A stretch of DNA of 64,000 nt. It comes from Artemia franciscana. Its lineage: Eukaryota; Arthropoda; Branchiopoda; Anostraca; Artemiidae. Below, piece by piece: positions 4,592 to 59,904 of the stretch (positions within the stretch are counted from its first letter, which is position 1; each line of letters begins with the position of its first letter). Made by a program: the position numbers and the translations under genes. Under the pieces are notes generated by a model that was not told the origin of the DNA, ran no database searches, and was given only the letters and a program-made list of their open reading frames with translations. The DNA lies in the NCBI RefSeq assembly GCF_032884065.1, contig NC_088868.1:8008963-8072962 (forward strand), written 5' to 3'.

Positions 4592-6412
4592 TGCAGGGTT
4601 CGGACAGGTCGGTTCGTTTCAAATTATAGGCTCTGTCCCATTTTTATAGGATTTCCCGGGCCCAAATATAGGCCAATTATAGGATTCGGAAGTCCTCGGG
4701 ATCAGATCTGAGGTAGATGGCGTGGGATACCTGGTCACATAAATTACCAAGTTTCATCCCGATCCCTCCAATCTAAGCGTTTTCCATGATTTTAGGTCCC
4801 CCCAAATCCCCCCCAATGTCACCAGATCCGGTCAGGATTTAAAATAAGAGCTTTGAAACCCGATATCCTTCTAAATATCAAATTTCATTGAGATCAGATC
4901 ACCCGTTCGTAAGTTAAAAATACCTCATCTTTTCTAATTTTTCAGAATCAACCCCCCCCCCAAACTACCCCAAAGAGAGCGGATCCGTACTGGTTATGTC
5001 AATCATGTATCTAGGACTAGTGCTTATTTTTCCCACCAAGTTTCAGCCCAATCCCCCCAATCTAAGCGTTTTCCATGATTTTAGGTCACCCCAAACTCCC
5101 CCCAATGTCACCAGATCAAGTCGGGATTTAAAATAAGAGCTTTGAGATACAATATCCTTCTAAATACCAAATTTCATTGAGATCCGATCACCTGTTCGTA
5201 AGTTAAAAATACCCCATTTTTTCTAATTTTTCAGAATCAACCCCCCCCCCCCCCGCCAACTACCCCAAAGAGAGCGGATCCGTTCTGGTTATGTCAATCA
5301 TGTATCTAGATTTTGTTCTTATTTTCCCCACCAAGTTTCAGCCCAATCACTCCACTCTAGTGTTTTCCAAGATTTTAGGTTTCCTCCTCCAAACTCCCCC
5401 AATGTCACCAGACCCAGTCGGGATTTAAAATAACAGCTCTGAGACACGATATCCTTCCAAACATCAAATTTCATTAAGATCTGATCAACCGTTTGTAAGT
5501 TAAAAATACTTCATTTTTCTATTTTTTCTGAATTAATGGGCCCCCCACTCGCCCCAGATGGTCAAACCGGCAAAACGACTATTTCTCATTTAATCTGGTC
5601 CAGTTCCTGATACGCCTGCCAAATTTTATTGTCCTAGCTTACCTGGAAGTGTCTAAAGTAGCAAAACCAGGACCGACAGACAGACAGACCGACAGAATTT
5701 GCGATTGCTATATATCACTTGGTTAATACCAAGTGTCATAAAAACATCATGCTACTATGAGATTAACCGAACAGACGGACCAAAGGACGATAAGGCGATA
5801 AACGATAAAAAGCTGATTCCGACAATCTTCCATACAGGAGAGCCAACTTTGCACTTATATCAGGGACATCAAACTTACGAATTATCTTACCATTGCTATA
5901 CCATGGGGGGAGATAAAGTAAAAATTTACAATATCTGAAATAAAAAGTCCGAATCTGATTAACATCATTTTTCTTTAGAAGGGGATAAAGACTAGATAGA
6001 TAAAGGACAGATTGATCACGGAATGTAGCATATAGCCTACCAAGTCCATGTCTAGTACACTTACCTGGATTAGCAACTATCTTAGAATAGCCCATTTGAA
6101 TAACTGGGCCGTATTCACATCAGCCAGCCAGCATTCAGCCAGGAAACACATAAGTCGCAAGAACTCCAGTCTCATTAAGCAGAGACTGCTAAGCACAACA
6201 CAAAGCATTAGTTCAGTTCAAAAAGCTCAACAGTTGTAATTAATTACCAATCTACACAAAAAGACAGAAAATTGCAAATCATGAGCAATGTTCTTAGTGC
6301 TCTTCAGCCGAAAATATAGGAATAATAGGATTTTAGCCAAAATATAGGCATTTTATAGGAGTGCATTAAAATATAGGAATTTATTGGAATTTAAAGGGGA
6401 GTCCGAACACTG
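4592..6412. mobile_element. Possible remnant of a hAT-like DNA transposon (outer ends only)
   Basis: The left boundary reads CAGGGTTCGGAC and the right boundary reads GTCCGAACACTG, an imperfect 12-base terminal inverted repeat beginning with CAG, as hAT-superfamily ends often do. Both ends are followed inward by ATATAGG-type motifs in opposite orientation. The flanking 8 bases (CATTACTG and TTAGAGAG) do not match, so there is no target-site duplication. No transposase is visible. The interior holds a satellite-bearing element (4740-5748) and unassigned DNA. Chance similarity is possible. Confidence 0.25.
4740..5748 (+). mobile_element. Satellite-bearing element A (Helentron-like, 5' truncated)
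   Basis: Three tandem units of about 290 bases can be seen. Each runs through AAGTTTCATCCCGATCCCTC, CTAAGCGTTTTCCA, GATTTAAAATAAGAGCT, TATCCTTCTAAATATCAAAT, CGTAAGTTAAAAATAC, a poly-C tract and GAGAGCGGATCCGT. The array ends in a unique tail with GACAGACAGAC, then CACTTGGTTAATACCAAGTG-like sequence (8-base stem, TAAT loop) and CATAAAAA. The 5' end present in the three other copies is missing here. Non-coding. Confidence 0.6.
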
Positions 6413-8662: not shown

Positions 8663-9553
8663 CTATAAAAAAGCAGGATTACTATAGTGGATCCGAAGCA
8701 GATCAACAGTCTTTTGCAAGTAAGAGACAAGGTCTCGGCGATTCTTTGCACTTTCTGGGTAATATACTGATGCTACAATTATGCACGAGTATAAGCGGGG
8801 CAAGTAAGTCGGTCTGCACATCGCCCAGATTACTTCATGGTCCGGATTAGCGAAATCAGAAAGGAGTTTACAGGGTATATCTTCTCTTACAAACAGACCA
8901 ACACCGCCCCCAAGTTTCGATAGACCACGATTAGAGCGAGTGTTCAAGAACACAGAGTATCCAGCCACACAACCTTTATTTTCATCGAGGTTCCATGTTT
9001 CAGTAACGGCTGCTATGGCAATGTTGTTCTGGCGAATAACAGCTTCAAAATCTTCTGTTTTGTTGCACAGCGATCTAGTGTTGCAAACGAGGAAGTTAGG
9101 AAGGCCACGACGAGCGTTGAATGTAACAGGTCTTAGGATAGGAGGCGTCTCATTGGCATAGTCGTAAACGGGCAAACTGTCGAAGCGTTTGATTACGGGT
9201 AAGTCTGTGAGACTCGATTCAGTCAGTCTGCCTACATTGGCGTGGGTGTCACTTAGAGCGGATAAGTTACTCGGTTCCACTAGGGGATTCCTCCTCTCAG
9301 AAACGCGTTTACCACTTCTGCAACCGCGACTCGTTTTAATGGGAGGCTTAGAAGTAGCTCTACTGTGAACAGTGCTGACATCTAAAAAAGGGGCGGTTGC
9401 AGCATCTGGTGGCTTCGTCAGAAGATTAAAAGTCACCAAGTTCAAAAAAGTAGATGGCGCTACCATATACAGGGGTGAAGAAAGGTCAAATAAAGTATCT
9501 TTCTTGTACTTAATTTGCATATTGATGGCACAGAAAACTGTCAGGATAGCCAC
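8663..9553 (-). pseudogene. LINE-A copy 1 N-terminal region and APE-type endonuclease
   Basis: The endonuclease nicks target DNA to prime reverse transcription. The open frame covers an unassigned N-terminal segment of roughly 120 residues, then FLVCNTRSLCNKTEDFE (Asn of the first APE motif), AVTETWNLDE (catalytic Glu) and GGGVGLFVREDIP. It stops just before the AGDFN motif because of a two-base loss near 8665 relative to the other copy. Upstream of about residue 110 the protein differs completely from copy 2 apart from APSTF, although the rest is nearly the same. The frame can start only at GTG or an internal ATG. Confidence 0.8.
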
Positions 9554-17026: not shown

Positions 17027-17657
17027 AGGTAAAATTCTACTTGAGTGACTTCTTGTTATCTCAGAAAGGAGTAAGGTTAGGAAAATGAAACTTTCAGGGT
17101 TGGGTCTACAGGCTCAAGTACATCCTGGGAAGGTATTTTAAAGTACCCACCTCTACTCCTTCTCCCTCTAGAGAGCCCTGAAATTTGTCTACATGATAGG
17201 TCTATGCATATTGAAATTTTGACAAAACAACATTTTACCTTAATTTTCAGTTACTAATTGTTTTTTCTCTGCCTTTAGTTCTGAAAATGCAATTCCTGTT
17301 ATTTGAGAAGAATTCTGAGCAATATCAATGTTGTTTTTTTTTCAAAATTTAGGAAATGTATTTGCATATCTTTAAAACCTTATAAATTGGGATTGAGCAA
17401 AGTTGTGAAGCTGAAAACAATTTTGTTGTAGTTCATTCAAGCAGAAGATCTATTTTACAAGATCTCTTTTTATAACACATATTTTGAAGGTCATCAAAGG
17501 TTAGGGCCTTCTAGAGGGGGAAGGAGTGGAGGTAGGTACTGCAAAATATCTTCTTTGTACATACTTTAGCCTGTAGACCCATCCCTGAAAGTTTCATTTT
17601 CCTAACCTAACCCCTTTCTGAGATAGCAAGAAGTCAATCAATCAGAATTTTACTGGT
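17027..17657. mobile_element. MITE-like element with long terminal inverted repeats, copy 1
   Basis: The left arm (about 17027-17200) contains GACTTCTTGTTATCTCAGAA, GGTTAGGAAAATGAAACTTT, GGTATTTTAAAGTACCCACC and CTCCTTCTCCCTCTAGAG. The right arm (about 17490-17657) carries the reverse complements in mirrored order (CTAGAGGGGGAAGGAGTGGA, TTCATTTTCCTAACCTAAC, TCTGAGATAGCAAGAAGTC). The centre is AT-rich and non-coding. Non-autonomous and foldback-capable. A transposase family cannot be assigned, and I see no convincing target-site duplication. Confidence 0.6.
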
Positions 17658-26582: not shown

Positions 26583-27887
26583 TCACTCGGCTTTGTTTAG
26601 CAAATCTGTAAAAAAAGGTACGAATGAATTTGCGTGGCGGTTCGTGCGTGAAGCTACAGGAACCAGTTTATTTTGGTGACGCGTACGGTTGTTGGGCGGT
26701 GCAGTAGGTGGTAAGATGTCTCGATGCTGGGGTTTAGAGAGAAGAAACTTCCCAAATCTCAGGATAATCTGCTCGTATCTTTGGGCCAACGTGGGGAGGT
26801 CGAGTTTAACAAGTGCTTCACCATAAGATAGTTGTCGATCGCCAATAATAATGAACACGGCTCGCTTTTGCACTGACTCAAGTTCTTGGATGAGGTATAC
26901 AGTACGCAGTGCTGCAGGCCCCCATAGTGGGCTTGCATATTCAAGGACTGGACGGACGTATGTAAGATAAGCTAGCAATAGGCACTGGAAATCACAGCCA
27001 AATCTACGCATTGTACTCAAAGACTGCAGACATACATTTGCGTTTTTAACAACATTTTCAACGTGCAAGCCAAAATAACAATCACTTGAAAAAGTAACTC
27101 CCAAAATCTTTATTGAGTCGACAATCGGAAACGGAACATACGGTTGGCTGAAAGTGCGCTTCAACGGATTAAAGCGTAAGACCTTTGACTTATTCGTGTT
27201 AATGATCAATTTAGAGACATTGCACTCGGCAATAAACACATCGAAGAAATCGTCACTGAACTCTTTCTTAACAATCCCGTTTTCAACTAAATATTTCAAT
27301 AGAAAAGAGATATCGTCTATAAACTTGTAATGATCCTCATATTCGACTAGTAGGTAGTTGATCACGGCTATAAATACAATGGCAGCCAACTTTGTGCCCT
27401 GTGGAGCTCCACATGTTATACCTGTCCAATCGGAGTCAGAATCCCCGTCAAACAGGGCATAAACACGCTGTTTCCTATTAGATAAGAAATCCATAATCAC
27501 GGATAACACGCGCTTTTTCGCACCCATTATCTTCAAATTTTGGCCAGCAATCAGGTGGTTAATGAAATCAAAAGCTTTTCCGAAGTCTATTGTACCTAGA
27601 TCCAGGAACCGATTACCTTTATCCAGCCATGTAAGTATACAATCGTACATACGCACTAGATAAATTGTAGTACTGTACTCATGGAATCCACCATACTGGT
27701 ACTTATCGATAGAGGAACTGATTTGGTCGAGCAATCGACGGAGTACAAATGCTTCCGTAACTTTAGCCAGGCAGGGGGTTATCGAGATAGGACGCAATTC
27801 ATCACATGCTTTAGGGGGCTCGATTTCGGAATAACCCGGATATATGCCTTTTTCCAAATATCTGGGAAAGTACCAAGCATGAAACAC
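26583..27887 (-). pseudogene. LINE-A copy 2 reverse transcriptase ORF fragment (434 codons)
   Basis: The longest surviving LINE-A frame. Motifs in order: ELRPISITPCLAKVTEAF (fingers), GGFHEYSTTIYLV, LGTIDFGKAFDFINH (motif A), TGITCGAPQGTKLAAIVF (motif B), YKFIDDISFLL (motif C), LIINTNKSKVLRF (motif D), IKILGVTFSSD (motif E), then AYLTYVRPVLEYASPLWG and the conserved C-terminal LESVQKRAVFII stretch. It ends in FTDLLNKAE and TGA. The N-terminal part of the RT (27994-27779) is in another frame because of a one-base deletion near 27830. Catalytic aspartates are intact, so the decay is recent. Confidence 0.85.
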
Positions 27888-27993
27888 AGGTTAATTAACA
27901 CGGATAATGGCTTGGCAATGAAGGGGGCGTATTCACGAACAAGTTTTACAGGAAGTTCCGAAGGATAGGATGCACTGTTGGGCTTAATTTTCA

Positions 27994-28641
27994 TTAATTC
28001 TTTGAAGACGTCTTCTTCAGTGACTTCAATAACTTCCTCTTCTGAGCGGCTTTTTGGGACTCGGTGGGTGGAGGGTGGGTTGTGCAGATTTCAGTGAAGA
28101 AGGAGTTCACATCTGTCGCAGTGAGAAGTTTGCCACTATCATCCAATATTCTCACACTAGAGGTAGTGGATTTTCCCGACATTTTTCTAACAGACTGATG
28201 CCATTTCTTTGGATTACTGACGCGCATAGGTGACACTGATAAGCGGCCATATTGAAGTTTGGCCTTTCGTATTACAGTGACGGTGTAATTTCGCAGTTTC
28301 TTTGCGTTTACTACATCACCGATAGAATGTAGGCGGCATCTCTCACGGATGAGTTTCTTTATGGCAGGGGTAATCCATGGCTTATCAAACTCACCAATGA
28401 TAACTGACTTGTTGGGGAAGATTTCGGTGTATTTGGAGTACAGAATGTCACTGAATCTTTTAGTCTTTTCGTGGATGTTTGAATCTCCGTCAACTTCTGG
28501 GAAATCATAATTGCCTATCCACTGACCATAGGCTCGAATGGCAGAGTCCGTCAGCGGGCGGGTAACTACGCAGCTTAGTTTAGCCTTGGACAATGAACTG
28601 TGGGCTTTCCACAGAATAGCAAAATGGTCGGACTTGGCCAC
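27994..28641 (-). pseudogene. LINE-A copy 2 linker between endonuclease and RT
   Basis: This 215-codon frame opens with KSDHFAILWKAHSS, the C-terminal SDH motif of APE endonucleases (catalytic His). It continues with the endonuclease-RT connector (ITPAIKKLIRERCRL, SPMRVSNPKKWHQSVRKMSG). The change of frame relative to the upstream ORF is a one-base difference near 28650 (GGTCCGAAGAAAC here, GGTCCGAGAGAAAC in copy 1). A further shift near 28040 separates it from the RT. Confidence 0.8.
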
Positions 28642-29603
28642 TGGTCCGAAGAAACAGGATTACAGTAGTGGGACTCACAGTTCGTAAGAATGAGATCCAG
28701 AATGCTGCCTGAGACGTGAGTAGGCATGTGAACCACTTGTTTAAGGGATAGACTGGATGAAAGCCAGCCTTTTTTCGTCTGGTTGAAGTCGCCTGCTATG
28801 ATAAAAGCAGGATTACTATAGTGGATCCGAAGCACATCAACAGTCTTTTGCAAGTAAGAGACAAGGTCTCGGCGATTCTTTGCACTTTCAGGGTAATATA
28901 CTGATGCCACAATTATGCACGAGTATAAGCGGGGCAAGTAAGTCGGTCTGCACATCGCCCAGATTACTTCATGGTCCGGATTAGCGAGATCAGAAAGGAG
29001 TTTAAAGGGTATATCTTCTCTTACAAACAGACCAACACCGCCCCCAAGTTTCGAAAGACCACGATTAGAGCGAGTGTTCAAGAACACAGAGTATCCAGCC
29101 ACACGACCAGTATTTTCATCGAGGTTCCATGTTTCAGTAACGGCTGCTATGGCAATGTTGTGGCGAATAACAGCTTCAAAATCTTCTGTTTTGTTGCACA
29201 GCGATCTAGTGTTGCAAACGAGGAAATTAGGAAGGCCACGACGAGCGTTGAAAGTAACAGGTCTTAGGATAGGAGGCGGCTCATTGGCATAGTAGTTAAC
29301 GGGCAAACTGTCGAAGTATTTGATTACGGGTAAGTCTGTAAGACTCGATTCAGTCGGTCTGCCTACATTGGCGCGGGTGTTACTCGGTTTTCTTTGTCTA
29401 GTTTTAATTCGTATTCCAGCTCTTTTCCCACGCCGCCTTCTTCTTTTCTGACCGTACACAGTAACAGGTCCTGGTGGGGCCTTCAGCAGTCCAAGTTCGT
29501 TTAAACGGATGAAGGTGGATGGCGCTAATGGTGAAAATGGATAGGGTCTAATTTTAATGAACGTTTTCATCAAACTGCTGATACCTGCTTGGTTGGTCGT
29601 CAC
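28575..29603 (-). pseudogene. LINE-A copy 2 N-terminal region and APE-type endonuclease
   Basis: Frame of 342 codons. The first ~90 residues are basic (YGQKRRRRRGKRAGIRIK) and may bind nucleic acid. They bear no resemblance to the same part of copy 1 except APSTF. The endonuclease follows: FLVCNTRSLCNKTEDFE (Asn), AVTETWNLDEN (Glu), GGGVGLFVREDIPF, IIAGDFNQTKKGW (Asp and Asn of GDFN) and SILDLILTNCE. The predicted first codon is GTG; the first ATG is about 11 codons later (MKTFIKIRP). The upstream in-frame stop is close, so initiation is uncertain. Confidence 0.8.
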
Positions 29604-31978: not shown

Positions 31979-34058
31979 ACAAGAGCTAAGAGCTCATATG
32001 GCACTTGTGACGCGGTCGAAAGAGCCAAGAGCCAGGAGCTCATATGGTATGAGCTCTAGCAAATTTCTAAGAATCAATGGATTGCTTTAAAAGGAAAATC
32101 AGAGGCTTAATGCCGATCGGGATTTAAAATAAGAGCTCCGAGTCACGAAGTCCTTCTAAATATCAAAATTCAGTAAGATCCGATCACCCACTCGTGAGTT
32201 AAAAATACCTCAATTTTTCCTCTCCCTTCAGCCCCCCAGATAGTCGAATCGGGAAAAACGACTTTATCAAGTCAATTTGTGCAGCTCCCTGACACACCTA
32301 CCAGTTTTCATCGTCCTATGAAGTCCAGAAGCACCAAACTCGCCAAAGCACTGAACCCCACCATCTAACTCCACCAAAGAGAGCGGATCCACACCGGTTA
32401 CGTCATTTTCGTATCTACGACATTTATAAGCGTTTTCCAAGATTTCCAGTTTCCCCTTCCAACGCCCCCAATGTCAAGACATCTGGTCGGGATTTGAAAT
32501 AAGAGCTCTGAGACAAGAGTTCCTTCTAAATATCAAATTTCATTAAGATCCGGTCACCTGTTCTTAAGTTAAAAATACCTCAATTTTTCTGATTTTTCCA
32601 AATTAACAACCCCCAACTCCAATAAAGAGAACGGGTTAGTACCAATTATGTCAATCTCGTATCTATAACTTGTGCTTATTCTTCCCATCAAGTTTCATCC
32701 CGATCTCTCCACTCTAAGGGTTTTCCAAGATTTCCGGTTTCCAAGATTTCTGTTTCCCCCCTCCAACCCTCTATGTCCTCGGATCCGATTCAAATTGAAA
32801 ATGGAGCATCTGAGACATAAGGTTCTTCTATATATTAAGTTTAATTAAGATCCGATCACTCATTCTTAAGATACCTGGATTTTCATGTTTGCCAAGAATG
32901 CCAGTTTCCCACTCCGACTCTCTTCAATGTCACCGGTTCTGGTCGAGGTTTAAAATGAGAGTTCTAAAGCACAAGATTGTTCTAGATATCAAATTTCATT
33001 AAAATCTGATCACCCGTTCGTAAGTTACAAATACCTCATTTTATCTAATTTTTTTGAATTAACCCCCCCCCCCCAAAAAAAAACTCCACCAAAGAGAGCA
33101 GATCCGTTCAGGTTGTGTCATTCACCTATCTTGGACTTGTGCTTATTTTTCCCACCAATTTTCATCCCGATCCCTCCATTCTAAGCCTTTTCCAAGATTT
33201 TAGGTTCCGCCCCCCCCCCCCAACTTCACCTTCACCGGATCCGGTCAGGATTTAAAATGAGAGCTCTGAGACACGATTCCCTTCTAAACATCAGATTTCA
33301 TTAAGATCCGATCACTCCTTCGTAAGTTAAAAATACCTCATTTTTTTATTTTTCAGAATTAACCCTCCTCCCCCAACTCCAACAAAGAGAGAGGGGCGTT
33401 TCGGTTATTTCAATCACGTATCTAGGACCTATGATTATTTTTATCCCGATCCCTCCATTCTAAGCGTTTTCCAAGATTTTAGGTCCCCCCCCAACTCCCC
33501 CCAATGTCACCGGATCCAGTCGGGATTTAAAAGAAGAGCTCTGAGAAACGATATCCTTCCAAAAATCAAATTTAATTAATTAACCTTATTTTTATATTTT
33601 TTAGAATTAACTCTCCCCCCAACTCCCCCAAAAATAGCAGATCCGTTCCGGTTATGTCAATCCCATATCTATAACTTGATCCGATCACTCCTTCGTAAGT
33701 TAAAAATACCTCATTTTTTCTAATTTTTCAGAATTAACCCCCCCCCCCCAACTCCCCCAAAAAGAGCAGATCCGTTCCGGTTATGTCAATCATGTATCTA
33801 GGACTTCTGCTTATTTCTCCCACCAAGTTTCATCCCGGTCCCTCCATTCTAAGCGCTTTCCAAGATTTTAGGTCCCCCCCAACTCTCCCCAATTTCAGAG
33901 GATCTGGTCGGGATTTAAAATAAGAGCTGTAAGACACGATATCCTTCCAAGCATAAAATTTCATAAAGATCCCATTACCCGTTCGTAAGTTAAAAATATT
34001 TCATTTTTTCTATTTTTTCCGAATTAACCAACTTGGTTAATACCAAGTGCCATAAAAA
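31979..34058 (+). mobile_element. Satellite-bearing element B (Helentron-like)
   Basis: 5' end: AAGAGCTAAGAGCTCATATG, then GCACTTGTGAC, a 23-base palindrome built on AGAGCTCATA-TGG-TATGAGCTCT, and CAGAGGCTTAATGCC. About seven tandem satellite units follow, with GATTTAAAATAAGAGCT, CATTAAGATCCGATCACC, CGTAAGTTAAAAATACCTCA and a poly-C tract. 3' end: ACTTGGTTAATACCAAGTGC then CATAAAAA. TATGGCACTTG near the start is the reverse complement of CAAGTGCCATA at the end. The GACAGACAGAC tail seen in other copies is deleted here. Non-coding. Confidence 0.7.
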
Positions 34059-38844: not shown

Positions 38845-39644
38845 CTATGTATCTTCAGGTAGGTTAAGCTTGTCTAATGGTTCACATTTGGGCAGTTTTC
38901 CACCGTGTATCCTCAAATGAACAGTCAAATTAAATTTTCTAGAAAATCTCTTCAGACATATTTTACATTCGTATGGCTTCTCCCTAGTGTGAATTTTTCT
39001 GTGATCCTTCAAATTCTGCCCTTGACTGAAGCACTTCTTACACTGTGAACATTCATATGGTTTGTCACCCGTATGGGTCCTCTTATGTACAGTCAAATTA
39101 CAACTTTTAGCGAATTTCTTATGACATATTTTACATTCATATGGCTTCTCCCTGGTGTGAACTCTTATATGATCCTTCAAATACTGCCCTTGACTGAAGC
39201 ACTTTTTACATTGTGGGCATTTATATGGTTTATCACCAGTATGGATCTTTTTGTGTCTATATAAATTTGCTCTCGTAACAAAGCTTATTTTGCAGTATTC
39301 ACACTGATATGGTTTTTCACCTGTATGAATCCTTGAGTGATCTATTAACTCTCGTTTATTGGAAAAAGTTTTATTGTAAACATCGCAATCATAGATCTTT
39401 TCTACAACTGGGGACAGTACTTTCTGCAGATGATTGACAGGATTCTCTATCTCTTCCTGTCTGGCATCATACATTCCAGAAATCGCTTCCACTTTGATGA
39501 AAGTGAAGCTTCTCATCTGATCTTCATCTTTTTCTATCCATGGTTTATGGGTTTCTGGTTCTGAAGCTGATTCTATTTCTTCCTTAACATATACCTCCGG
39601 ATAGTCAGTCGTATAATATGGTTCGGCTGATGACAGATTCAAAT
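38845..39644 (-). CDS. C2H2 zinc-finger protein, terminal exon (zinc-finger array)
   Basis: Likely a sequence-specific nuclear DNA-binding protein. On the minus strand the exon follows a TTATTATAG acceptor at 39645-39646. Its first two bases complete a codon, then 265 codons run to TAG. An acidic N-terminal region has VKEEIE and IKVE motifs of the SUMO-acceptor type. Next is one degenerate finger (CDVY in place of CxxC, HxxxH intact), then five canonical fingers starting at CEYC, CPQC, CKIC, CSQC and CKIC with TGEKPY, TGDKPY and TREKPY linkers. The CSQ/CPQ fingers and the CKIC fingers alternate, suggesting duplication of a two-finger unit. There is no ATG at the exon start, so upstream exons are needed: phase-compatible ones lie at 47105-47269 and 60519-60564. 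Its molecular targets are unknown. Confidence 0.85.
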
Positions 39645-39914: not shown

Positions 39915-41737
39915 ACAAGAGCTCATATGGCACTTGTGACGAGGCAAGAAGAGCTAAGAGCCAAGAGCTCATATGGTATGAGGTCTAGCAAAATCGTAAG
40001 AATCGATAGATTGATTTAAAAGGAAAATCAGAGGCTTAATGCCGGTCAGGATTTAAAATAAGAGCTCTGAGTCACGATTTCCTTCCCGATCACCCACTCT
40101 TAAGTTATAAATACCTCATTTTTTCAAATTTTCCCTCTCCTTTTAGCCCTCCATATGGTAGAACCTGGGAAAACAACTTTATCAAGTCAATATATGCAGC
40201 TCCCTGACACGCCTACCAATTTTCATCGTCCTAGCACGTCCAGAAGCACCAAACTTGCCAAATCACTGAACCCCTCTCCCCAACTCCCCCAAAGAGAGTT
40301 AATCCAATACGGTTAAGTCAATCACGTATCAAGGACATTTGCTTATTCTATTCACCAAGCTTCATCCCGATTCCTCCACTCCAAGCGTTTCCAAGATTTC
40401 CCCCTCCAACTCCCCCAATGTCAACAGATCTGGTCGGGATTTGAAATAAGAGTTCTGAGACATGAATTCCTTCTAAATATCAAATTTTATTAAGATCCAG
40501 TCACCCGTTCTTAAGTTGAAAATACCTCAATTTTTCTAATTTTTCCAAATTATACCCCCCAGCTCCTCCAAAGAGAACGGATCCGTTCCAATTATGTCAA
40601 TCACGTATCTAGAACTTATGCTTATTCTTCCCATCAAGTTTCATCCCGATCTCTCCACTCTCAGCGTTTTCCAAGATTTCTGTTTCCCTCCTACAACCCC
40701 CTATATCCCCGGATCCAATTCGAGTTGAAAATGGAGCATCTGAGACATAAGGTTCTTTACCTATTCGTAAGATAAAAATACCCCAATTTTCACCTTTTCC
40801 AAAAATTCCGGTTTTCCCCTCCAACTCCCCCCAATGTCACAGGATCTGGTGGGAATTTAAAATTAGAGCTTTAAAGCACAAGATCCTTCTAAATATCAAA
40901 TTTCATTAAGACCTGGTCACCCATTCGTAGGTTAAAAATACCTCACTTTTCCAAATTACCCCCCCCCCCAACTTCACCAAAGAGAGCAGATCTGGTCCGG
41001 TTATGTCAGTCACGTATCTTAGACAGGTTTTAATGCTTCCCATCCAGTTTCATCCTGATCTCTCCGCTATAAGTATTTTCTAAGATTTCCGCCCCCCCCC
41101 CCCAATGACACTGGATCCAGTTGAGATTTAAAATAAGAGATCTGAGTAACGAAGTCCTTCTAAATAAGAAGTTTCATGAAGATCCGATCACTCCTTCGTA
41201 GGTTAAAAATCCGTCATTTTTTTCTAATTTTTCAGAATTAGCCCCCCCCCCACCAATAGAGCGGATCCATTCCAATTATGTCAATCACGTATCTAAGACT
41301 TCTGCTTATTTTTCCCACCAAGTTTCATCCCGATCCCTCCAATCTAAGCGTTTTCCATGATTTTAGATCCCCCCCCCCAACTCCGCCAATGTCACCAGAT
41401 CCGGCCAGGATTTGAAACAAGAGCTCTGAGACACGATATCCTTCCAAACATCAAATTTTATTAAGATCTGATCAACCGTTCGTAAGTTGAAAATACTTCA
41501 TTTTTTCTATTTTTTTCGAATTAACCGGCCCCCACTCTCCCCCCCCCCCCAGATGGTCGAATCGGGAAAACGACTATTTCTAATTTAATTTGGTCCGGTC
41601 CCTGATACACCTGCCAATTTCATCGTCCTAGCTTTCCTGGAAGTGCCTATAGTAGCAAAACCGGGACCGACAGACAGACAGACAGAATTTGCGATTGCTA
41701 TATGTCACTTGGTTAATACCAAGTGCCATAAAAAAAG
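39915..41737 (+). mobile_element. Satellite-bearing element C (Helentron-like), in intron 2
   Basis: Shows both ends of the family. The start CAAGAGCTCATATGGCACTT is followed by GTGACGAGGCAAGAAGAGCT and the AGAGCTCATATGGTATGAGG palindrome. About six degenerate satellite units follow. The tail has GGGACCGACAGACAGACAGA, and the final CACTTGGTTAATACCAAGTG hairpin is followed by CCATAAAA. Subterminal TATGGCACTTG and CAAGTGCCATA are inverted. Non-coding; antisense to the host gene. Confidence 0.7.
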
Positions 41738-48585: not shown

Positions 48586-51273
48586 TGACAAGAGCTAAGA
48601 GCTCATATGGCACTTGTGACGAGGCAAGAAGAGCTAAGAGCGAAGAGCTCATATGGTATGAGCTCTAACAAAATTCTAAGAATCAATAGATTGATTTAAA
48701 AGGAAAATCAGAGGCTTAATGCCGGTCAGGATTTAAAATAAGAGCTCTGAGTCACGATGCCCTTCTAAATATCAAAATTCATTAAGATCCGATGACACGC
48801 CTACCAATGTTCATCGTCCTAGCACGTTAAGAAGCACCAAACTCGCCAAATAACTGAACACCTCCCCCCAACTCCCCCAAAGAGAGCGAATCCAGTACGG
48901 TTACGTCAATGACGTATCAAGAACAGTCCCTTATTCTATCCACCAAGCTTCATCTCGATTCCTCCACTCCAACTGTTTTCCAAGATTTCCCCCTCTAACC
49001 CCCCTCCCAATGTCAAAAGATCTGGTCGGGACTTGAAATAAGAGCTCTGAGACATGAATTCTTTCTAAATATCAAATTTCATTAAGATCCGATCACATAT
49101 TCGTAAGATAAAAATACCCCGATTTTCAAGTTTCCTAAGAATTCCGGTTTCCCCCTCCAACTCCCCCCAATGCCACAGGATCTGGTCGGAATTTAAAATT
49201 AGACCTTTAAAGCACAAGATCCTTCTAAATATCAAATTTCATAAAGATCTGGTCACCCTTTCGTAAGTTACAAATGCCTCAATTTTCAAAATTACCCCCC
49301 CCCAAAAAAAAAAACTCCACCAAAGAGAGCAGATCCGGTCCGGTTATGTCACTCACGTATCTTAGACAGGTTATTATTCTTCCCATCCAGTTTCATCCTG
49401 ATCTCTCCACTTTTAAGTATTTTCTAAGATTTCTGGTCCCCCCAACGCCCCCCAACGATTTAAAATAAGAGATCTGAGTTACGAGGTCCTTCTAAATATG
49501 AAGTTTCCTGAAGATCCAATACCTCCTTCGTAAGTTAAAAATACGTCATTTTTTCTAATTTTTCAGAATTACCCCCCCCCCCCAATAGAGCGGATCCGTT
49601 CCAATTATGTAAATCACGTATCACGTAATAATACGTAAGACTTCTGCTTATTATTCCCACCAAGTTTCATCCCGATCCCTCCAATCTAAGCGTTTTCCAT
49701 GCTTTTAGGTTCCCCCATCCCAAACTCCTCCCCAATGTCACCAGATCCGGTCGGAATTTAAAACAAGAGCTTTGAGACAAGATATCCTTCTAAATATTAA
49801 ATTTTATTGAGGTCCAATCACCAGTTCGTAAGCTAAAAGTACCTCATTTTTTCTATTTTTCAGAATTAACCCCCCCCCCCCCCCGAACTACCCCAAAGAG
49901 AGTGGATCCATTCCGGTTATGTCAATCATGTATCTAGAACTTGTGTTTATTTTTCCAACCAGGTTTCATCCCGATCCCTCCCCTCTAAGTGTTTACCAAG
50001 ATTTTAGGTTTCCCCTCTTAACTCCCCCCCCCCAATGTCACCAGATCCGGTCGGGATTTAAAATAAGAGCTTTGACACCCGATATCCTTCTAAATATCAA
50101 ATCTCATTGAGATCAGATCACCCTTTCGTAAGTTAAAAATACCTCATTTTTTCTAGTTTTTCAGAATTAACCCCCCCCCCCCCCATAGAGCGGATCCGTT
50201 CCAATTATGTAAATCACGTATCTAAGACTTCTGCTTATTTTTCCCACCAAGTTTCATCCCGATCCCTCCAATCTAAGCGTTTACCATGATTTTAGGTTCC
50301 CCCACCCCAAACTCCCCCCAATGTCACCAGATCCAGTCGGAATTTAAAATAAGAGCTTTGAGACACGATATCCTTCTAAATATCAAATTTCATTAAGATC
50401 CGGTCTCTCGTTCGTAAGTTAAAAATACCTCATTTTTTTTTAATTCTTAAGAATTACCCCCCCCCCCCAACTACCCCAAAGAGAGCGGATCCGTTCCGGT
50501 TATGTCAATCATGTATCTAGGACTTGTGCTTATTTTTCCTACCAAGTTTTATCCCGATCCCTCCACTCTAAGTGTTTTCCAAGTTTTAGGTTTCCCCCTC
50601 CCAACCCCCCAACCCCCCAATGTCACCAAATCCGGTCGGGATTTAAAATAAGAGCTCTGAGACACGATATCCTTTTAAACATCAAATTTCATTGAGATCC
50701 CATCACTCGTTCGTAAGTTAAAAATACCTCACTTTTTCTAATATTTCATAATTAACCCCCCCCCCTCCCAACTACCCCTAAGAGAGCGGATCCGTTCCAG
50801 TTATGTCAATAATGTATCTAGGACTTGTGCTGATTTTCCCCACCGAGTTTCATCCCGATCCCTCCACTCTAAGTGTTTTCCAAGTTTTAGGTTTCCCCCT
50901 CCCAACTCCTCGAATGTCACCAGATCCAGTCGGGATTTAAAATAACAGCTCTGAGACACGATATCCTTCCAAACATTAAATTTCATTAAAATCTGATCAA
51001 CCGTTCATAGGTTAAAAATACTTCAATTTTCCTATTTTTTCCGGATTAACACCCCCCCCCCCCCCCCCCAGATGGTCAAATCGGGAAAACGATTTGACCA
51101 TCTGGTCAAATTAGAACTATTCATAATTTAATCTGATCCGGTCCGTGATACGCCTGCCAAATTTCATCGTCCTAGCATACCTGGAAGTGCCTAAAGTAGC
51201 AAAACCGGGACAGACAGACCAACAGAATTTGCAATTGCTTTATGTCACTTGGTTAACACCAAGTGCCGTAAAA
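48586..51273 (+). mobile_element. Satellite-bearing element D (Helentron-like), longest copy, in intron 1
   Basis: Starts GACAAGAGCTAAGAGCTCAT then ATGGCACTTGTGACGAGGCA, with the AGAGCTCATATGGTATGAGC palindrome. About nine tandem satellite units of roughly 290 bases follow, most carrying a homopolymer C tract of 9-17 bases before CAACTACCCCAAAGAGAGCG. The tail contains GGGAAAACGA, CGTCCTAGCATACCTGGAAG and GACAGACAGACC-like sequence. The end is CACTTGGTTAACACCAAGTG then CCGTAAAAA. The inverted TATGGCACTTG end pair is present with one mismatch at the 3' side. Length variation among copies is mainly unit number. Confidence 0.7.
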
Positions 51274-51303
51274 ACACATATTTCATGGGTACATCAGAAA
51301 AAA

Positions 51304-51530: not shown

Positions 51531-53239
51531 CATTGATGACTTTTGTGGAGCCCCTCAGATCTTTTCCCAAAACTAGGGGGCAATGAATAATTTCTGAGAC
51601 CACAATGACTAAGCATAACCAGACGAGAAGAAGACATGTGTTAATAAGAAAAACAAGGATAGTTCCAGTCAAACAGTACAAATATTTCGACCAAGACCTC
51701 TGCTCAGCCATACTCTATGCAGAAATAGAAAAATAAAAACAAATACTAATTAACCCTAAAAACAACCACTAATTTAAAAGATCTGACATGAAATGGCAAT
51801 TCAGTCTACTAAATCTGAGTTTTAAATTTACTATTTTTGTGTCAGGTTTGGTTTCATGGAATTTTATTAGGTTGCAAAATGTTGTCATGTGATAGAGAAA
51901 AACCTGATTTAACAATTTCATTATAAATGAGAGCAGCTCTTAGTAAAGAAAACTGATTCCTCTAGTTATATCTACTGAGAACTAATTTTTTTGGTATATT
52001 TTTCTTAATTCCGTCTGCCTCTCTGAAAACTTGCATGAGACCTTACAAAGGGACAATAATGGAGGTTTATTTCAAACAAAATGAAACAGTATAGGTTACC
52101 CTTGGTTTAGCATCTTGATGTGTCAATCAATGGGACCATATTGGTTCACAGCCTTTTTTTCAATTAGCGTTAGTAGCTATTTCCTTCATTTTCGTTTTTC
52201 TTGTTTAACTGTTTCAGTGCCAATATACCTGCTAATCAATTTAAACAATTTATCTCTGTAATAAAATAGAAGGCTTTGCACTCTAAAACAGATCAGCAGA
52301 TGCTTTAGGAATCGAAACATTAATTTCGAACAGCCAAGCAGAACATTAGCCCACTGAGTTACCATAGAGGTTCTGCTTGTGGATTTCAGCCTACACGTAA
52401 TACTACCTTTCATGAAAAATTTGGCTGATTTTCTTCCGTCATTGGCAAATCACGGCCTAAAGCTGTCAATAAGAATTCTTAAACATTTTTACTCACTGAC
52501 AAAATTAATAGCTGACAACATGTTCCTAACGATACTCCCAGTGGAAGCAGACGAATTAGTATGATGCATTGGGCTACTTTCCACCAATCGCATCTTTCAA
52601 ATGTAAATAATATGGATAGGCCAGGAGCTAGTTTTTAAAAATATCTGCATTTTTAACCTGTTGTAAGATAACATAAATTTACCGGAAACAGACTTGTAGA
52701 AGGCTATCTGTAGAAGTCTAAAGCCTACTGCGTCATTAGCGCTATAATGAAAACTATATGTGACTCGAACAGTATTGGAAAAAACTAGTAAAATTAAACT
52801 GAATAGTTAGTATATAATAATATTAACTCCTGAAAGCTCATCAGGCCAAGATTTTATTTAATTGTACTTTTATGTACAAAATAAAATTGTATGTAATATA
52901 ATATATTTTCAGTAAAGGGTCAATGATGCAGAAGGCTTTATACTTCTACACTTAGGCAAGGGGAAGCAGCCTAACTCTTGTTATTTATTCATTTGTATTA
53001 GTATCGATTGTATGTTTGTTTAGTGTGATTGTTTATTTAATCTCTGTTGTTTATGGCTTTTATTAATTCTTTAATAATAAAAGATTTTTTCGTCCATTTT
53101 AAGCTTGATTGGCATATTTAATTTAAGTTTTACTCGTTTTAAGATTAATTTTTTCATTTTGTATGGTACCTGTTCTATGTTGGTTCTCTATGATTTTTTA
53201 CTTAATATCTATTTGTTCTGGATTTCATTTCTTCTTTAT
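51531..53239. other. No gene seen; intronic
   Basis: AT-rich DNA within intron 1. On the minus strand, 51715-51685 reads CTGAGCAGAGGTCTTGGTCG then AAATATTTG. This is reminiscent of the conserved CTGA...CGAAATAT segment in the Penelope terminal repeat nearby, so it may be a very old trace. The short ORFs have no recognisable domains. Confidence 0.35.
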
Positions 53240-53370
53240 ATATATCTAAAATCAGCATTAAAATGCGATTTTTGATGTACAATTGTAACAAAATTCCGTT
53301 TTTTAGAGTTTTGGTTACTATTGAGCCGGGTCACTCCTTACTACAGTTCGTTACCACGAACTGTTTGATA
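53240..53370 (-). mobile_element. Non-coding hairpin-ended repeat (TATCAAACAG family), short copy R2
   Basis: On the minus strand it begins at 53370 with TATCAAACAGTTCGTGGTAA and the hairpin. It continues GTAGTAAGGAGTGACCCGGC, AAACTCTAAAAAACGGAATT and GCATTTTAATGCTGATTTTA, then stops near 53240. Only the first ~130 bases of the family are present. Confidence 0.7.
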
Positions 53371-53689
53371 GTAATTTCTAGTCGTTTTGAGTTTGAATCA
53401 TTACAGGTTTTTATTCCTACAGATCTTAAGCTCAATATGACCTTTACTTTTCTTTGAAAAGCTTCTTTTCGTAAAACTTTACTTAATTAATTCTGGCCGT
53501 TTTTGATAGCCATTTTTTAAGTTTTCCAAAGTTTACTTTCAATTTTTTTAACATCTAAGTTTCATCAAAGTATCAAAAAGCAACTTTCGTAACTTGCACC
53601 TCTTGCCCCATAAACAAAATCTACCTCGTCAATCAGTAAATCAAAATCTGAAAGTAAACAAGATATGAAAGTAACAATAAGCAAGTTTC

Positions 53690-55490: not shown

Positions 55491-55500
55491 GGTTAACAAT
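55491..55500. repeat. Target-site duplication, left copy (GGTTAACAAT)
   Basis: Ten bases GGTTAACAAT immediately left of the Penelope composite, repeated exactly at 59905-59914. The surrounding satellite reads naturally across the gap when the insert is removed. Confidence 0.8.
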
Positions 55501-55924
55501 AGCGACGAAGACCACACTGCCTTTCCATAACAAACAAATACAACGTAGAAACAATAGGGAAAGTTTTTTCAAGACAATGGAAATTATTTATGTAGATATT
55601 TCGGCCCTATGTCCAAGGGCCGTCTTCAGCACAATACAATACTATATATATATATATAAAAGAACTTACATCAAATTGTAATAATTCCTCTGAAATAGTT
55701 ACATCTATATTTGTATACATGGAAACAATGTCGAAACTACTAACTATTGTGTTTTCTGAAATACTTGTGCTGCTAAGTTTTTTAATCAAATCTGCCGAGT
55801 TATGAATATAGGAATTTTGAGAATACAATAAAGGTTTGAAAGCTGCACAAAGCCATTTTCCAATATTGGCAGCGAGAGCTTTGGTACAAGCTACAATAGG
55901 TCTTAAGGGAATACCCTGTTTATT
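55501..55924 (-). mobile_element. Penelope-like element, inverted and internally deleted 5' part
   Basis: Minus-strand piece of the same element family. Read from 55924 downward: an RT segment from ATAAACAGGGTATTCCC to TTTCAGAGGAATTATT (equivalent to 58039-58281). A direct jump to ACAATTTGATGTAAG in the 3' UTR (equivalent to about 59757) follows. Next comes the whole terminal repeat, and finally the first ~30 bases of the ORF (ATGGAAAGGCAGTGTGG to CTTCGTCGCT). The deletion removes about 1.5 kb without GT-AG borders, so it is not an intron. One substitution (AAAGCTCTCGC versus AAAGCTCCCGC) is visible. Confidence 0.85.
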
Positions 55925-57005
55925 TTTGCTCCCATTCATATATAAATGCAGAAATAAATTTTATCAGAGATATTCTTTTTGGTAATGGATACCCCATTCC
56001 TTTTGTAAATAAAATAATTAGCCGTAGAATAAAAAGACATTCTTGTAAAATCGAAGAAGATACTTCACAATGTGAGGCTATTGATAAGCCCTCAAATATT
56101 GTCTATCTTCCGTATATCCCAAAGATTACAACAAAATTAAAAAATATTTGCACAAAAAATAATCTGTACGTAGTTTTTACTAATAATTTTAAAATCATCA
56201 ATTTCTTAAATTCGGGTAAAGATAAGACCCCAGTTACTCGCCAAAGAGGGGTCTATCAAATACCCTGTGATTGCGGAAAATACTATGTCGGCAGGACCCA
56301 TCAGAATCTAGACAAAAGGTTACAACAGCATAAAAATGACATAGACAAGGCCTTAATTTCAAATGGTTCCAACAATTCCTTTGATTCTGCTCTAGGTTGG
56401 CATATATTTAATAATCCGTCCCACATGATACTTTTTGAAAACTCTTCACTCATTAGTAATGATTTGGGAATAAAACAGGTGGTTCGAGAATCAATTGAAA
56501 TTAATCTCAAAATAAATAAAAATATTTCTTTGAACAGGGACTTGGGGGAATACTCACTAAATTCTTTATGCTCAAATTTAATTAAAAATGATCTAACAAA
56601 ATATTTTACTAAACCAATTTATAATAGTACTGAACCAACTACGAAAAGGCCTTTGAGACAGGCTGCTAAACAAGCAAGATTAGCTTTAAGAAATTGCATC
56701 TAATCATTTTATTCTCTTTAGTTTGAATGAGTTTATATTTCTTCATTTCATTCTTTTCGCCAGTCCTGGTTGAACTTCGCTGAAGTAAGGATGCTAGGGC
56801 TATATTTTAAAAAAAAAATTGTTTTAATAAGTGTTTTTATATTCAGTTTTATTCTCACAATTTGATGTAAGTTCTTTTATATATATATATAGTATTGTAT
56901 TGTGCTGAAGACGGCCCTTGGACATAGGGCCGAAATATCTACATAAATAATTTCCATTGTCTTGAAAAAACTTTCCCTATTGTTTCTACGTTGTATTTGT
57001 TTGTT
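55925..57005 (+). mobile_element. Penelope-like element, forward 5'-truncated copy with terminal repeat
   Basis: Nearly identical to 58825-59904. It holds the last ~259 codons of the ORF, including the GIY-YIG domain, and ends at TAA 56701-56703. The 3' UTR follows, then the terminal repeat (TATATAGTATTGTATTGTGC through CGTTGTATTTGTTTGTT) that directly abuts the ATG of the full copy. By eye the differences are one G/A change near 56570 and small length changes in A and AT runs. It provides the upstream, promoter-bearing terminal repeat for the complete copy. Confidence 0.85.
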
Positions 57006-59603
57006 ATGGAAAGGCAGTGTGGTCTTCGTCGCTATTTTCGTCTAGCTTATGGGGAGCAGTTGACCTATGATATCTTTTATTTTATTAGTCTAGGTAAAAA
57101 ACATGCTAATATTATCAATCAACAAAAATTTTTAGAATCCTGTAGAAAGGAAAACCTTATTCCCAAGTCTTTAAGATATAAATTACATTTAAATACCCGA
57201 AAAGAAGCGCAATTTGCCCATACACTACAGTTAAAAACCCTAGTCCATATTATTAAGGCCAAAAAACAGAAACGACATATTATTTCTTCAGAGAGAAAAT
57301 CGTTGGAAACTTTTTTGCTGGAAAACCTGTCCACTGTTGATTTTGCTCAAGTTGTTAGATTAGAAAGGAATTTGTTTAGCCACGATTTTCGCTTGTCCAA
57401 GGAACGCCTCTATAAAAAATTAGAGGGCTTACGAAATGAATCTTCGATGAGAAACCGTATTTATTCTCCAAGATTCACTCCTGGGCCTGCTATCGTTAAC
57501 CTCTCTTCTAAAACATTGGAACCCCAGGAAATCGAAACACTAGAAAAAGGTCCAAAATTTTCTTTTCTACCGAAACAGGTTCCTGTGGCAGATATAGTTT
57601 CCTCTCTAGAGTCCGCTTTGCATAAACACTATCCTTCTGTCTCTAACCCGGATGAAGTTAGATCTGGTCTAATAAATATCCTCTATAATAGCCAAAAAAA
57701 GTTTAAGCCTCCTACTAATTCCACACCGGAAAATTTGCATGACATAAAAATACTATCTAATCTCCGAAAAGATCCTTCTATTATAATAACTAAAGCAGAC
57801 AAAAGCAATTCACTTGTTGTCATGAATACAACAGACTATGACAACAAAAATTTTTCGCATTTAAATGACACAATTACATATCAAACAATAACTCATGATC
57901 CTACTGATCAGTTCACTAATAATATTATAAATGAATTAAAGCAGCTAAAACAAAATGGTAAAATCACCCCACAACTATACAATAAATTTTTTCCCCGTGG
58001 TAGTTTCTGTCCTAAACTCTACGGTTTACCAGAAATACATAAACAGGGTATTCCCTTAAGACCTATTGTAGCTTGTACTAAAGCTCCCGCTGCCAATATT
58101 GGAAAATGGCTTTGTGCAGCTTTCAAACCTTTATTGTATTCTCAAAATTCCTATATTCATAACTCGGCAGATTTGATTAAAAAACTTAGCAGCACAAGTA
58201 TTTCAGAAAACACAATAGTTAGTAGTTTCGACATTGTTTCCATGTATACAAATATAGATGTAACTATTTCAGAGGAATTATTAAAAAACAAAATAGAAGA
58301 AAATTACCACTTGATCGAGACTTCAGCGACAGGAATTGATTGTGAAGTTTTAATGACTCTTGTTAAAATTTGTAATAAGTTTTCTATGTATTTTCAATTT
58401 CGCGATTCTTTTTATCAGCAAAAAAAAGGATTACCCATGGGGGCACCTTTATCCGGGCTACTAGCAAATATTTACATCGAAAATCTTGAGAATTGGGCAT
58501 TGAATTCTTATTTTCTAAAACATGTCTATTGGGGTCGTTATATGGATGACGTAATTTCACTTTGGAATTATGGGGAAGCTGAACTTCGGGGCTTCTTAGA
58601 TCATCTTAACACTTATGACCGAAATTTGCAGTTCACCCTTGAAGTTGAAATTGAAAATAAACTACCGTTTTTAGATGTATTAATTATTCGTAATGCTGAT
58701 AAACTGGATTTTACTATATATCGAAAGCCAACACAAAACAATAGATATCTTCACTTTAATTCAAATCACCCCCCACAAGTTAAAAGAGCAGTTGTAATTT
58801 CCCTCATTGATCGTGCCCTAAATATTTGCTCCCATTCATATATAAATGCAGAAATAAATTTTATCAGAGATATTCTTTTTGGTAATGGATACCCCATTCC
58901 TTTTGTAAATAAAATAATTAGCCGTAGAATAAAAAGACATTCTTGTAAAATCGAAGAAGATACTTCACAATGTGAGGCTATTGATAAGCCCTCAAATATT
59001 GTCTATCTTCCGTATATCCCAAAGATTACAACAAAATTAAAAAATATTTGCACAAAAAATAATCTGTACGTAGTTTTTACTAATAATTTTAAAATCATCA
59101 ATTTCTTAAATTCGGGTAAAGATAAGACCCCAGTTACTCGCCAAAGAGGGGTCTATCAAATACCCTGTGATTGCGGAAAATACTATGTCGGCAGGACCCA
59201 TCAGAATCTAGACAAAAGGTTACAACAGCATAAAAATGACATAGACAAGGCCTTAATTTCAAATGGTTCCAACAATTCCTTTGATTCTGCTCTAGGTTGG
59301 CATATATTTAATAATCCGTCCCACATGATACTTTTTGAAAACTCTTCACTCATTAGTAATGATTTGGGAATAAAACAGGTGGTTCGAGAATCAATTGAAA
59401 TTAATCTCAAAATAAATAAAAATATTTCTTTGAACAGGGACTTGGGGGAATACTCACTAAATTCTTTATACTCAAATTTAATTAAAAATGATCTAACAAA
59501 ATATTTTACTAAACCAATTTATAATAGTACTGAACCAACTACGAAAAGGCCTTTGAGACAGGCTGCTAAACAAGCAAGATTAGCTTTAAGAAATTGCATC
59601 TAA
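57006..59603 (+). CDS. Penelope-like element polyprotein: reverse transcriptase plus GIY-YIG endonuclease
   Basis: Intact 865-codon ORF. ATG at 57006 follows the terminal repeat directly; the in-frame TTG at 56991 is an unlikely start. The N-terminal ~250 residues are basic and unassigned. RT: TKADKSNSLVVMN, FCPKLYGLPEIHK, SSFDIVSMYTN (motif A, Asp409), KKGLPMGAPLSG (motif B, about 473-484) and GRYMDDVISLW (YMDD at 512-515). The Penelope-typical LPFLDVLI and YRKPTQNNRYLH stretches follow. GIY-YIG nuclease: GVYQIPCDCGKYYVGRT with GVY at 715-717 and YVG at 727-729, the conserved Arg and His in DKRLQQH, and a Glu in ESIEI as the likely metal ligand. All core catalytic residues are present. It copies element RNA at sites cut by its nuclease and is probably nuclear. 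It lies antisense in intron 1 of the zinc-finger gene. Confidence 0.95.
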   Translation: MERQCGLRRYFRLAYGEQLTYDIFYFISLGKKHANIINQQKFLESCRKENLIPKSLRYKLHLNTRKEAQFAHTLQLKTLVHIIKAKKQKRHIISSERKSLETFLLENLSTVDFAQVVRLERNLFSHDFRLSKERLYKKLEGLRNESSMRNRIYSPRFTPGPAIVNLSSKTLEPQEIETLEKGPKFSFLPKQVPVADIVSSLESALHKHYPSVSNPDEVRSGLINILYNSQKKFKPPTNSTPENLHDIKILSNLRKDPSIIITKADKSNSLVVMNTTDYDNKNFSHLNDTITYQTITHDPTDQFTNNIINELKQLKQNGKITPQLYNKFFPRGSFCPKLYGLPEIHKQGIPLRPIVACTKAPAANIGKWLCAAFKPLLYSQNSYIHNSADLIKKLSSTSISENTIVSSFDIVSMYTNIDVTISEELLKNKIEENYHLIETSATGIDCEVLMTLVKICNKFSMYFQFRDSFYQQKKGLPMGAPLSGLLANIYIENLENWALNSYFLKHVYWGRYMDDVISLWNYGEAELRGFLDHLNTYDRNLQFTLEVEIENKLPFLDVLIIRNADKLDFTIYRKPTQNNRYLHFNSNHPPQVKRAVVISLIDRALNICSHSYINAEINFIRDILFGNGYPIPFVNKIISRRIKRHSCKIEEDTSQCEAIDKPSNIVYLPYIPKITTKLKNICTKNNLYVVFTNNFKIINFLNSGKDKTPVTRQRGVYQIPCDCGKYYVGRTHQNLDKRLQQHKNDIDKALISNGSNNSFDSALGWHIFNNPSHMILFENSSLISNDLGIKQVVRESIEINLKINKNISLNRDLGEYSLNSLYSNLIKNDLTKYFTKPIYNSTEPTTKRPLRQAAKQARLALRNCI

Positions 59604-59904
59604 TCATTTTATTCTCTTTAGTTTGAATGAGTTTATATTTCTTCATTTCATTCTTTTCGCCAGTCCTGGTTGAACTTCGCTGAAGTAAGGATGCTAGGGC
59701 TATATTTTAAAAAAAAATTGTTTTAATAAGTGTTTTTATATTCAGTTTTATTCTCACAATTTGATGTAAGTTCTTTTATATATATATATAGTATTGTATT
59801 GTGCTGAAGACGGCCCTTGGACATAGGGCCGAAATATCTACATAAATAATTTCCATTGTCTTGAAAAAACTTTCCCTATTGTTTCTACGTTGTATTTGTT
59901 TGTT
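59604..59904 (+). mobile_element. Penelope-like element 3' UTR and downstream terminal repeat
   Basis: Same sequence as 56704-57005. It contains an AT run (about 59779-59791), then GTGCTGAAGACGGCCCTTGG, ACATAGGGCCGAAATATC and TTTCCATTGTCTTG, ending in TGTATTTGTTTGTT. The CTGAAGA...GAAA core resembles part of a hammerhead ribozyme, which Penelope terminal repeats are known to carry in several animals. Stem II (GGCCCT/AGGGCC) is clear, but I cannot show stems I and III. Confidence 0.8.

Follow-up and report, generated by a model that had tools for sequence, protein, structure and literature searches.

Satellite DNA is known in the Helentrons of oysters and flies, and the review passages considered here discuss several models for the origin and change of its arrays. 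Satellite-bearing non-autonomous Helentrons (HINEs) are likewise already described in the passages of PMC7492417 and PMC4067079 used for comparison. In Cg_HINE of the Pacific oyster, as laid out in that part of PMC7492417, the left end comprises a subTIR of 11-12 bp, an inverted repeat of 7-12 bp that lies 1-12 bp away, and microsatellites of the GTCY type, and the right end comprises a subTIR and then a palindrome. At the protein level, Helentrons with VTD or OTU deubiquitinase domains are described in passages of PMC9741609. Four related repeats, copies A-D, in the 64,000-nucleotide stretch of DNA analysed here (the window; C6:8008963-8072962 of a 1.27-Gb genome assembly) look like old copies of a rolling-circle element carrying its own satellite DNA. 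We are highly confident that they are HINE copies on the minus strand, that their arrays are largely inherited, and that the likely driver belongs to the family of a protein encoded on contig C4112. The finding is a new, large family within a known class, the non-autonomous Helentrons.

The original prediction held that copies B-D share their ends and their satellite units and that copy A keeps the end it called 3', and these features are present as described. A 20-base hairpin is located at 5716-5735, 34030-34049, 41706-41725, and 51246-51265 in A-D, respectively, with 0-1 mismatches (shuffle mean, 0.02), and all nine sites in the window that match TATGGCACTTG with at most one mismatch lie inside A-D (shuffle mean, 1.26). 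The tandem units, claimed to be ~290 bases long, were confirmed as units of ~300 bases: TRF reported 5.4 copies with a period of 299 at 49457-51063, and a 300-base unit taken from D found matches in all four copies. The claimed termini held to within a shift of 0-4 bases, and the positions given below for each copy are the adjusted ones.

Copy D (48588..51274, minus strand, as are all of the features that follow) is complete at both ends and, among the four, has the longest array, with eight X units and a partial X near the 3' end. Its 5' end (51241..51274) consists of a T5 run, the 5' subTIR TACGGCACTTG, which has one mismatch to the family sequence, an 8-nt spacer, and a complementary inverted repeat, and is adjoined by a short GTCN microsatellite (51209..51224). 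Between the microsatellite and the satellite array lies a T module (51074..51211) with a 24-bp inverted duplication that is absent from A and C. In the array itself (48722..51048), X units of ~135 bp alternate with Y units of ~150 bp, at ~295-300 bp per unit. Toward the other end, the palindrome AGAGCTCATA-CCA-TATGAGCTCT (48644..48666) is situated just inside the 3' end, followed by the 3' subTIR (48606..48616; minus-strand sequence CAAGTGCCATA) and by the 3' palindrome GAGCT-CTT-AGCTC (48592..48604), which pairs in the fold and is 3-4 nt from the 3' terminus.

Copy C (39915..41734, start approximate) also has both ends, and a 7-base deletion shortens its 3' palindrome. Copy B (31979..34058) keeps both termini and has an internal deletion near the 5' end, which took part of the inverted repeat (the inner hairpin arm), the microsatellite, and the T module. 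Copy A (4740..5744) is a 3'-truncated HINE in which the 5' end is followed by T, X Y X Y X, and an incomplete Y. C-runs of at least 8 in the window fall inside A-D in 19 of 22 cases, and G-runs of at least 8 in 0 of 4, so that the minus strand of the element carries long G-runs. A search of Rfam at the gathering score gave no match.

The window contains other elements as well. A Penelope-like element at 56991-59603 (plus strand) has an 870-aa frame encoding reverse transcriptase and GIY-YIG domains, and its repeats (55498-57005 and 58822-59904) are 99.7% identical as direct and 97-99% as inverted copies; given this high identity, the element is perhaps young. Two LINE copies (6435-9253 and 26583-29384), 95% identical, contain reverse transcriptase and EEP endonuclease frames, and a single-frame C2H2 zinc-finger protein with several fingers (38845-39642, minus strand) overlaps a 168-bp tandem repeat.

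The orientation given in the original prediction was not borne out. Its two ends are exchanged, and the hairpin end that it called 3' is, biologically, the 5' end of an element on the minus strand. Read on that strand, the 5' end runs TTTTT, the 5' subTIR TATGGCACTTG (with one mismatch each in A and D), an 8-nt spacer, CAAGTGACATA or a variant of it, ~17 nt, the GTCN microsatellite, the T module, and the array, and the family pattern of this end is TTTTTATGGCACTTGG...GTCN. CAAGTGACATA is the inverted repeat complementary to the 5' subTIR, and the terminal hairpin CACTTGGT-TAAT-ACCAAGTG is the 5' subTIR together with its inverted repeat. The true 3' palindrome is GAGCT-CTT-AGCTC, at the opposite end from this hairpin; the 3' end runs GAGCTCATA-CCA-TATGAGCTC, the 3' subTIR CAAGTGCCATA, 17 bp from the terminus, then GAGCT-CTT-AGCTC, TTG, and T.

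A reading on the plus strand was rejected, as the TATGGCACTTG end would then be followed by no complementary inverted repeat, the microsatellite would lie at the opposite end, and the reading direction of the C4112 Rep frame, described below, is toward the GAGCTC end. A strict grammar test with exact 11-mers was passed by one of three window copies (C) in the minus orientation and by none of three in the plus orientation, which makes the test weak by itself. The subTIR pairs are exact in B and C and have one mismatch in D. In folds of the window copies, the inverted repeat pairs, being truncated in B, and the 3' palindrome folds in B and D and is shortened in C. The element ends with TTTTTATGG and GCTCTTG, then T, and these ends do not fit a canonical Helitron (5' TC, 3' CTRR, insertion between A and T).

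The genomic copies, whose collection had been proposed together with the prediction, are numerous. In the assembly, 7,814 exact 20-base 5' hairpins (3,961 + 3,853) and 8,690 exact 23-base 3' ends (4,302 + 4,388) were counted, and the reversed-pattern controls gave 0 on both strands for either end. We sampled 48 copies whose 5' hairpin is exact, taking 1.5 kb of downstream sequence for 8 of them and 4.5-5.5 kb for the other 40. The sample is non-random, as it is confined to the initial 10.7 Mb of contig C1, and not all of its members are independent: L022 has flanks in common with L023, as does L048 with L049, and L030 and L034 lie in copies of one repeat. The 3' end was present in 28 of the 48, all of them among the 40 with longer flanks; in the other 12 of these 40, family similarity breaks off early. 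The 3' terminus was read in 25 of the 28 by a pattern requiring one T, which L013, L017, and L044 failed, and these three were excluded from the counts.

Among the 25 scored copies, the 5' subTIR is TATGGCACTTG in 23, the 11-bp subTIR pairs are exact in 20, and the inverted repeat CCAAGTGACATAT and the GTCN run are each found in 24. The stretch after the 3' subTIR, with the palindrome GAGCTCTTAGCTC, is identical in 18, and the other 7 have variants or a duplication. In the pairwise comparison for Helentron/HINE membership, 271 of the 300 pairs that these copies form passed, and the same comparison in the window gave 86.7% for B-D, 77.6% for C-D, and 68.7% for B-C, counting the 7-base deletion of C.

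L027 and the short-flank L002 contain just 71 bp of the HINE, from the start of its 5' end, inside another repeat of ~1 kb, which also has a short frame that by eye resembles the N-terminus of the L050 Helitron protein. Two LF-RF pairs are, by eye, unusually far apart: L051, a HINE interrupted by a stretch with frames that by eye look LINE-like, and C1:1251342-1255620. Searches for relatives with 4 patterns gave 0 matches each in viral contigs and none in phages and plasmids; the lone match in wider genome contigs (L001, 27 bases, bacterial contig) was taken as chance. A literature text search for the motif strings of the element returned none.

The search for an autonomous Rep/helicase partner with the same ends, also proposed at the outset, gave a candidate: a Rep/helicase/endonuclease frame with a HINE-like 3' flank was found, but a HINE 5' end was detected neither on its contig, C4112, nor in the 7.8 kb upstream on C11, which carries a partner copy. 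Within the window, regular expressions for Rep/helicase motifs gave nothing convincing, with scattered short hits and no P-loop hit. The frame on C4112 is open over 2,446 aa (L054:309-3001 and L056:1-4645), and Pfam, searched in two pieces, identified UCH, DUF6570, Helitron_like_N, PIF1, and Exo_endo_phos_2, the UCH-type peptidase domain being at the N-terminus. Approximately 160 bp past the stop of this frame, 97 bp (contig 17309-17405) match the 3' part of the HINE L012 at 95.9%, and 67 bp downstream of the frame are 100% identical to the 3' end of L011, L012, and L034. The match stops 26 bp before the predicted terminus, at the contig end, and this 3' variant was seen in just 3 of the 25 scored copies.

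Over 5 kb, the partner copy on C11 is 97% identical to C4112, and the two agree in the first 40 bp of the 3' end before the C11 copy diverges. Because C11 has part of the same 3' end at the same place, the C4112 match is not merely an inserted HINE. The upstream piece of C11 (L061) holds a separate HINE, 98.9% identical to L011, and C4112 has none there. As the 5' end was not found, we call the C4112 frame the candidate driver, linked by the 3' end only. Judging from the sequences, the driver is likely to be the family of this Rep/PIF1/AP-endonuclease frame, which shares its 3' end with one HINE subfamily.

A driver made of Rep and helicase without an endonuclease, as in a Helitron2-type or other endonuclease-less rolling-circle element with similar ends, is improbable in our judgement. 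In its favour, the genome is rich in Rep proteins (for PF14214, 150 of 7,435 candidates were scored and all 150 passed the cut-off), and L050 (1,688 aa) and L052 (2,701 aa) show no Pfam endonuclease; however, L050 has TC...CTAG ends, neither L050 nor L052/L053 has the HINE subTIRs, and among the few Rep candidates read the sole frame with a matching 3' end does have an endonuclease. A second Pfam family, PF20209, gave 47 matches from 59 candidates. Both L050 and L052/L053, each with a Rep/PIF1 frame, were rejected as partners, the former looking like a canonical Helitron and the latter having none of the HINE ends. The 2,701-aa frame (L052:646-8748), which contains DUF6570, represents another Helitron-like lineage of the genome.

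The insertion preference, which the original prediction had left to be defined, is for T-runs without a detectable target-site duplication (TSD), and paralogous empty sites were found. The 5' T-run has exactly five bases in 33 of the 48 sampled copies, and the base after the T at the 3' end is T in 25 of the 25 scored copies. Window copy D is an exception, with one T instead of two at the 3' junction and C as the next base. TSDs, which would have pointed to another class, were sought at the borders, and none was detected: in the 25 copies, direct repeats at the borders were no longer than those obtained when flanks were permuted between copies, with 154, 171, 122, and 103 of 200 permutations reaching the observed mean at a slop of 0, 1, 3, and 5, respectively. 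The flanks of copy B contain an 11-bp direct repeat that is offset by ~20 bases from one border and was equalled by 1 of 300 local controls; nothing comparable was seen in the flanks of C, D, and A.

Empty sites were searched with joined flanks of 120 bp. For L034, they were found over the whole query, in L013 (94.4%) and L020 (92.1%); the others reached up to 87.1% for L030, up to 86.4% for L037, and up to ~76% for L018, and a full-length empty site was absent for most of the 25 copies in the sequence examined. By the rule given in the cited part of PMC4067079 (90% over 90%), L034 alone passes; by that in the cited part of PMC7492417 (80% over 85%), L030 and L037 also pass, and L018 passes neither. 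In the alignments for L034, L037, and L018, the junction lies within the T-run, with no duplication. Another repeat family in the window (10631, 18914, 24020, 3193-3329, and 53239-53379) shares an end with the hairpin ACAGTTCG...CGAACTGT, and copies of this repeat act as HINE insertion targets and empty sites, for example for L018. These data indicate that insertion of the family takes place in T-runs and leaves no TSD.

These junctions bear on two further readings. A LINE- or SINE-like retroposon on the plus strand, whose A-run and the truncation of copy A would result from target-primed reverse transcription, is scarcely tenable. On the plus strand, each of the four window copies does finish in five or more A, and the other end is missing in copy A and in 12 of the 40 genome copies; but there are no TSDs, empty sites rejoin inside T-runs, the run is exactly five in 33 of 48 copies, and, with 8,690 exact copies, the opposite end is no less sharply defined. 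A MITE or foldback DNA transposon with terminal inverted repeats, suggested by the 11-bp inverted motifs near both ends, can be all but dismissed, as the motifs are subterminal, the ends otherwise differ, the T-runs lie outside, and there is no TSD. The assignment to the non-autonomous Helentrons, made in the original prediction from its ends and repeats, is supported by the subTIRs, the inverted repeat, the microsatellite, the tandem repeats, the 3' palindrome, and the T-rich sites without a TSD.

The array units X and Y are framed by T modules, and in 19 of 29 copies (25 from the genome and A-D; among the window copies, only C) the array starts with T and finishes with X Y T X. The remaining 10 differ at one array end or the other. 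X and Y were not supported as halves of one ancestral monomer, since shuffled sequences aligned as well in 222 of 500 trials for X-Y, 120 of 500 for Y-T, and 33 of 500 for X-T. The 142 X units in the 19 copies have a mean identity of 0.804 between copies, 0.797 within a copy, and 0.806 between neighbours. For 138 of them, the best match is in another copy; the 4 own-copy matches, compared with 6.8 (sd 2.8) under label permutation, show only that there is no excess, and thus give no sign of in-place homogenisation. Growth of the arrays in place, from which an own-copy excess is expected, was rejected accordingly. In the window, own-copy best matches numbered 2 of 21 for X units (permutation mean, 5.3) and 7 of 18 for Y units, five of them in D (mean, 4.4; 883 of 5,000 permutations reach 7). 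The Y units D3-D5 are 96% and D6-D7 94% identical, and from these identities local duplication among some Y units of D is likely.

Position within the array is kept between copies. Counted from the 3' end, 101 of the 138 X units have their best match at an equal index, compared to 62 when counting starts at the 5' end; X identity is 0.84-0.93 for equal 3' indices versus 0.74-0.82 for unequal ones. Unit trees of the window copies showed the same grouping by position. When arrays of unequal length were aligned, the extra X units fell 104, 58, 67, 48, and 11 by fifths from 5' to 3', these 288 placements coming from overlapping pairs and thus not being independent. Since unit positions are conserved from copy to copy, the array for the most part moves together with the element. 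These results indicate that the arrays are largely inherited, not regrown in place, and that they differ mainly toward the 5' side. The 5'-side differences may reflect rolling-circle copying, and passages of PMC12628747 describe a model of 5' parts being amplified through rolling-circle errors. The same pattern could arise if the copies descend from a small number of length classes.

For the HINE reading, the following course of events is proposed. The Rep/helicase/endonuclease protein would nick the element at its 5' end, one strand would be peeled off, copying would halt at the 3' subTIR and palindrome, and the product would be joined into a T-run. Each new copy would inherit the array of its parent, with units gained or lost mostly toward the 5' side. 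With thousands of copies, fixed termini, and a module order, the history of the arrays is readable copy by copy. Tentatively, a more general proposal may be made, which we consider possible and do not favour over its denial: a Helentron lineage with a UCH-type deubiquitinase transposase might mobilise satellite arrays as heritable, position-preserving blocks; rolling-circle copying would add or remove units close to the 5' side, which would make the array a record of replication.

The candidate driver may extend the range of deubiquitinase types described for Helentron proteins. Like the Helentrons in the cited passages of PMC9741609, the C4112 frame combines Rep/helicase, a C-terminal AP endonuclease, and a deubiquitinase-type accessory domain; it matches PF00443 (UCH), whereas those passages name VTD and OTU, and the part of PMC4067079 considered likewise has OTU proteases where the candidate driver has UCH. 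Among the literature matches listed for UCH or USP with Helentron, none besides PMC9741609, which itself mentions UCH and USP, concerned the combination, which may already be published.

The family resembles HINE-Mo/DINE-1, as described in passages of PMC4067079, in the subTIRs, the 3' palindrome, the T-runs at the boundaries, the preference for TT, the lack of a TSD, and, in its candidate driver, Rep, Hel, and EN, and it resembles DINE-1 in the inverted repeat beside the 5' subTIR. It differs from the elements in these passages in the second palindrome inside the 3' end and in the distance from the 3' subTIR to the terminus, 17 bp here versus 38-60 bp in the mite families. With Cg_HINE, by the layout described in the cited part of PMC7492417, it shares the module order, a satellite-like array, and T-rich insertion without a TSD, whereas the array unit is here a two-module X/Y unit of ~295-300 bp framed by T modules, compared to monomers of mainly 140-180 bp in Cg_HINE.
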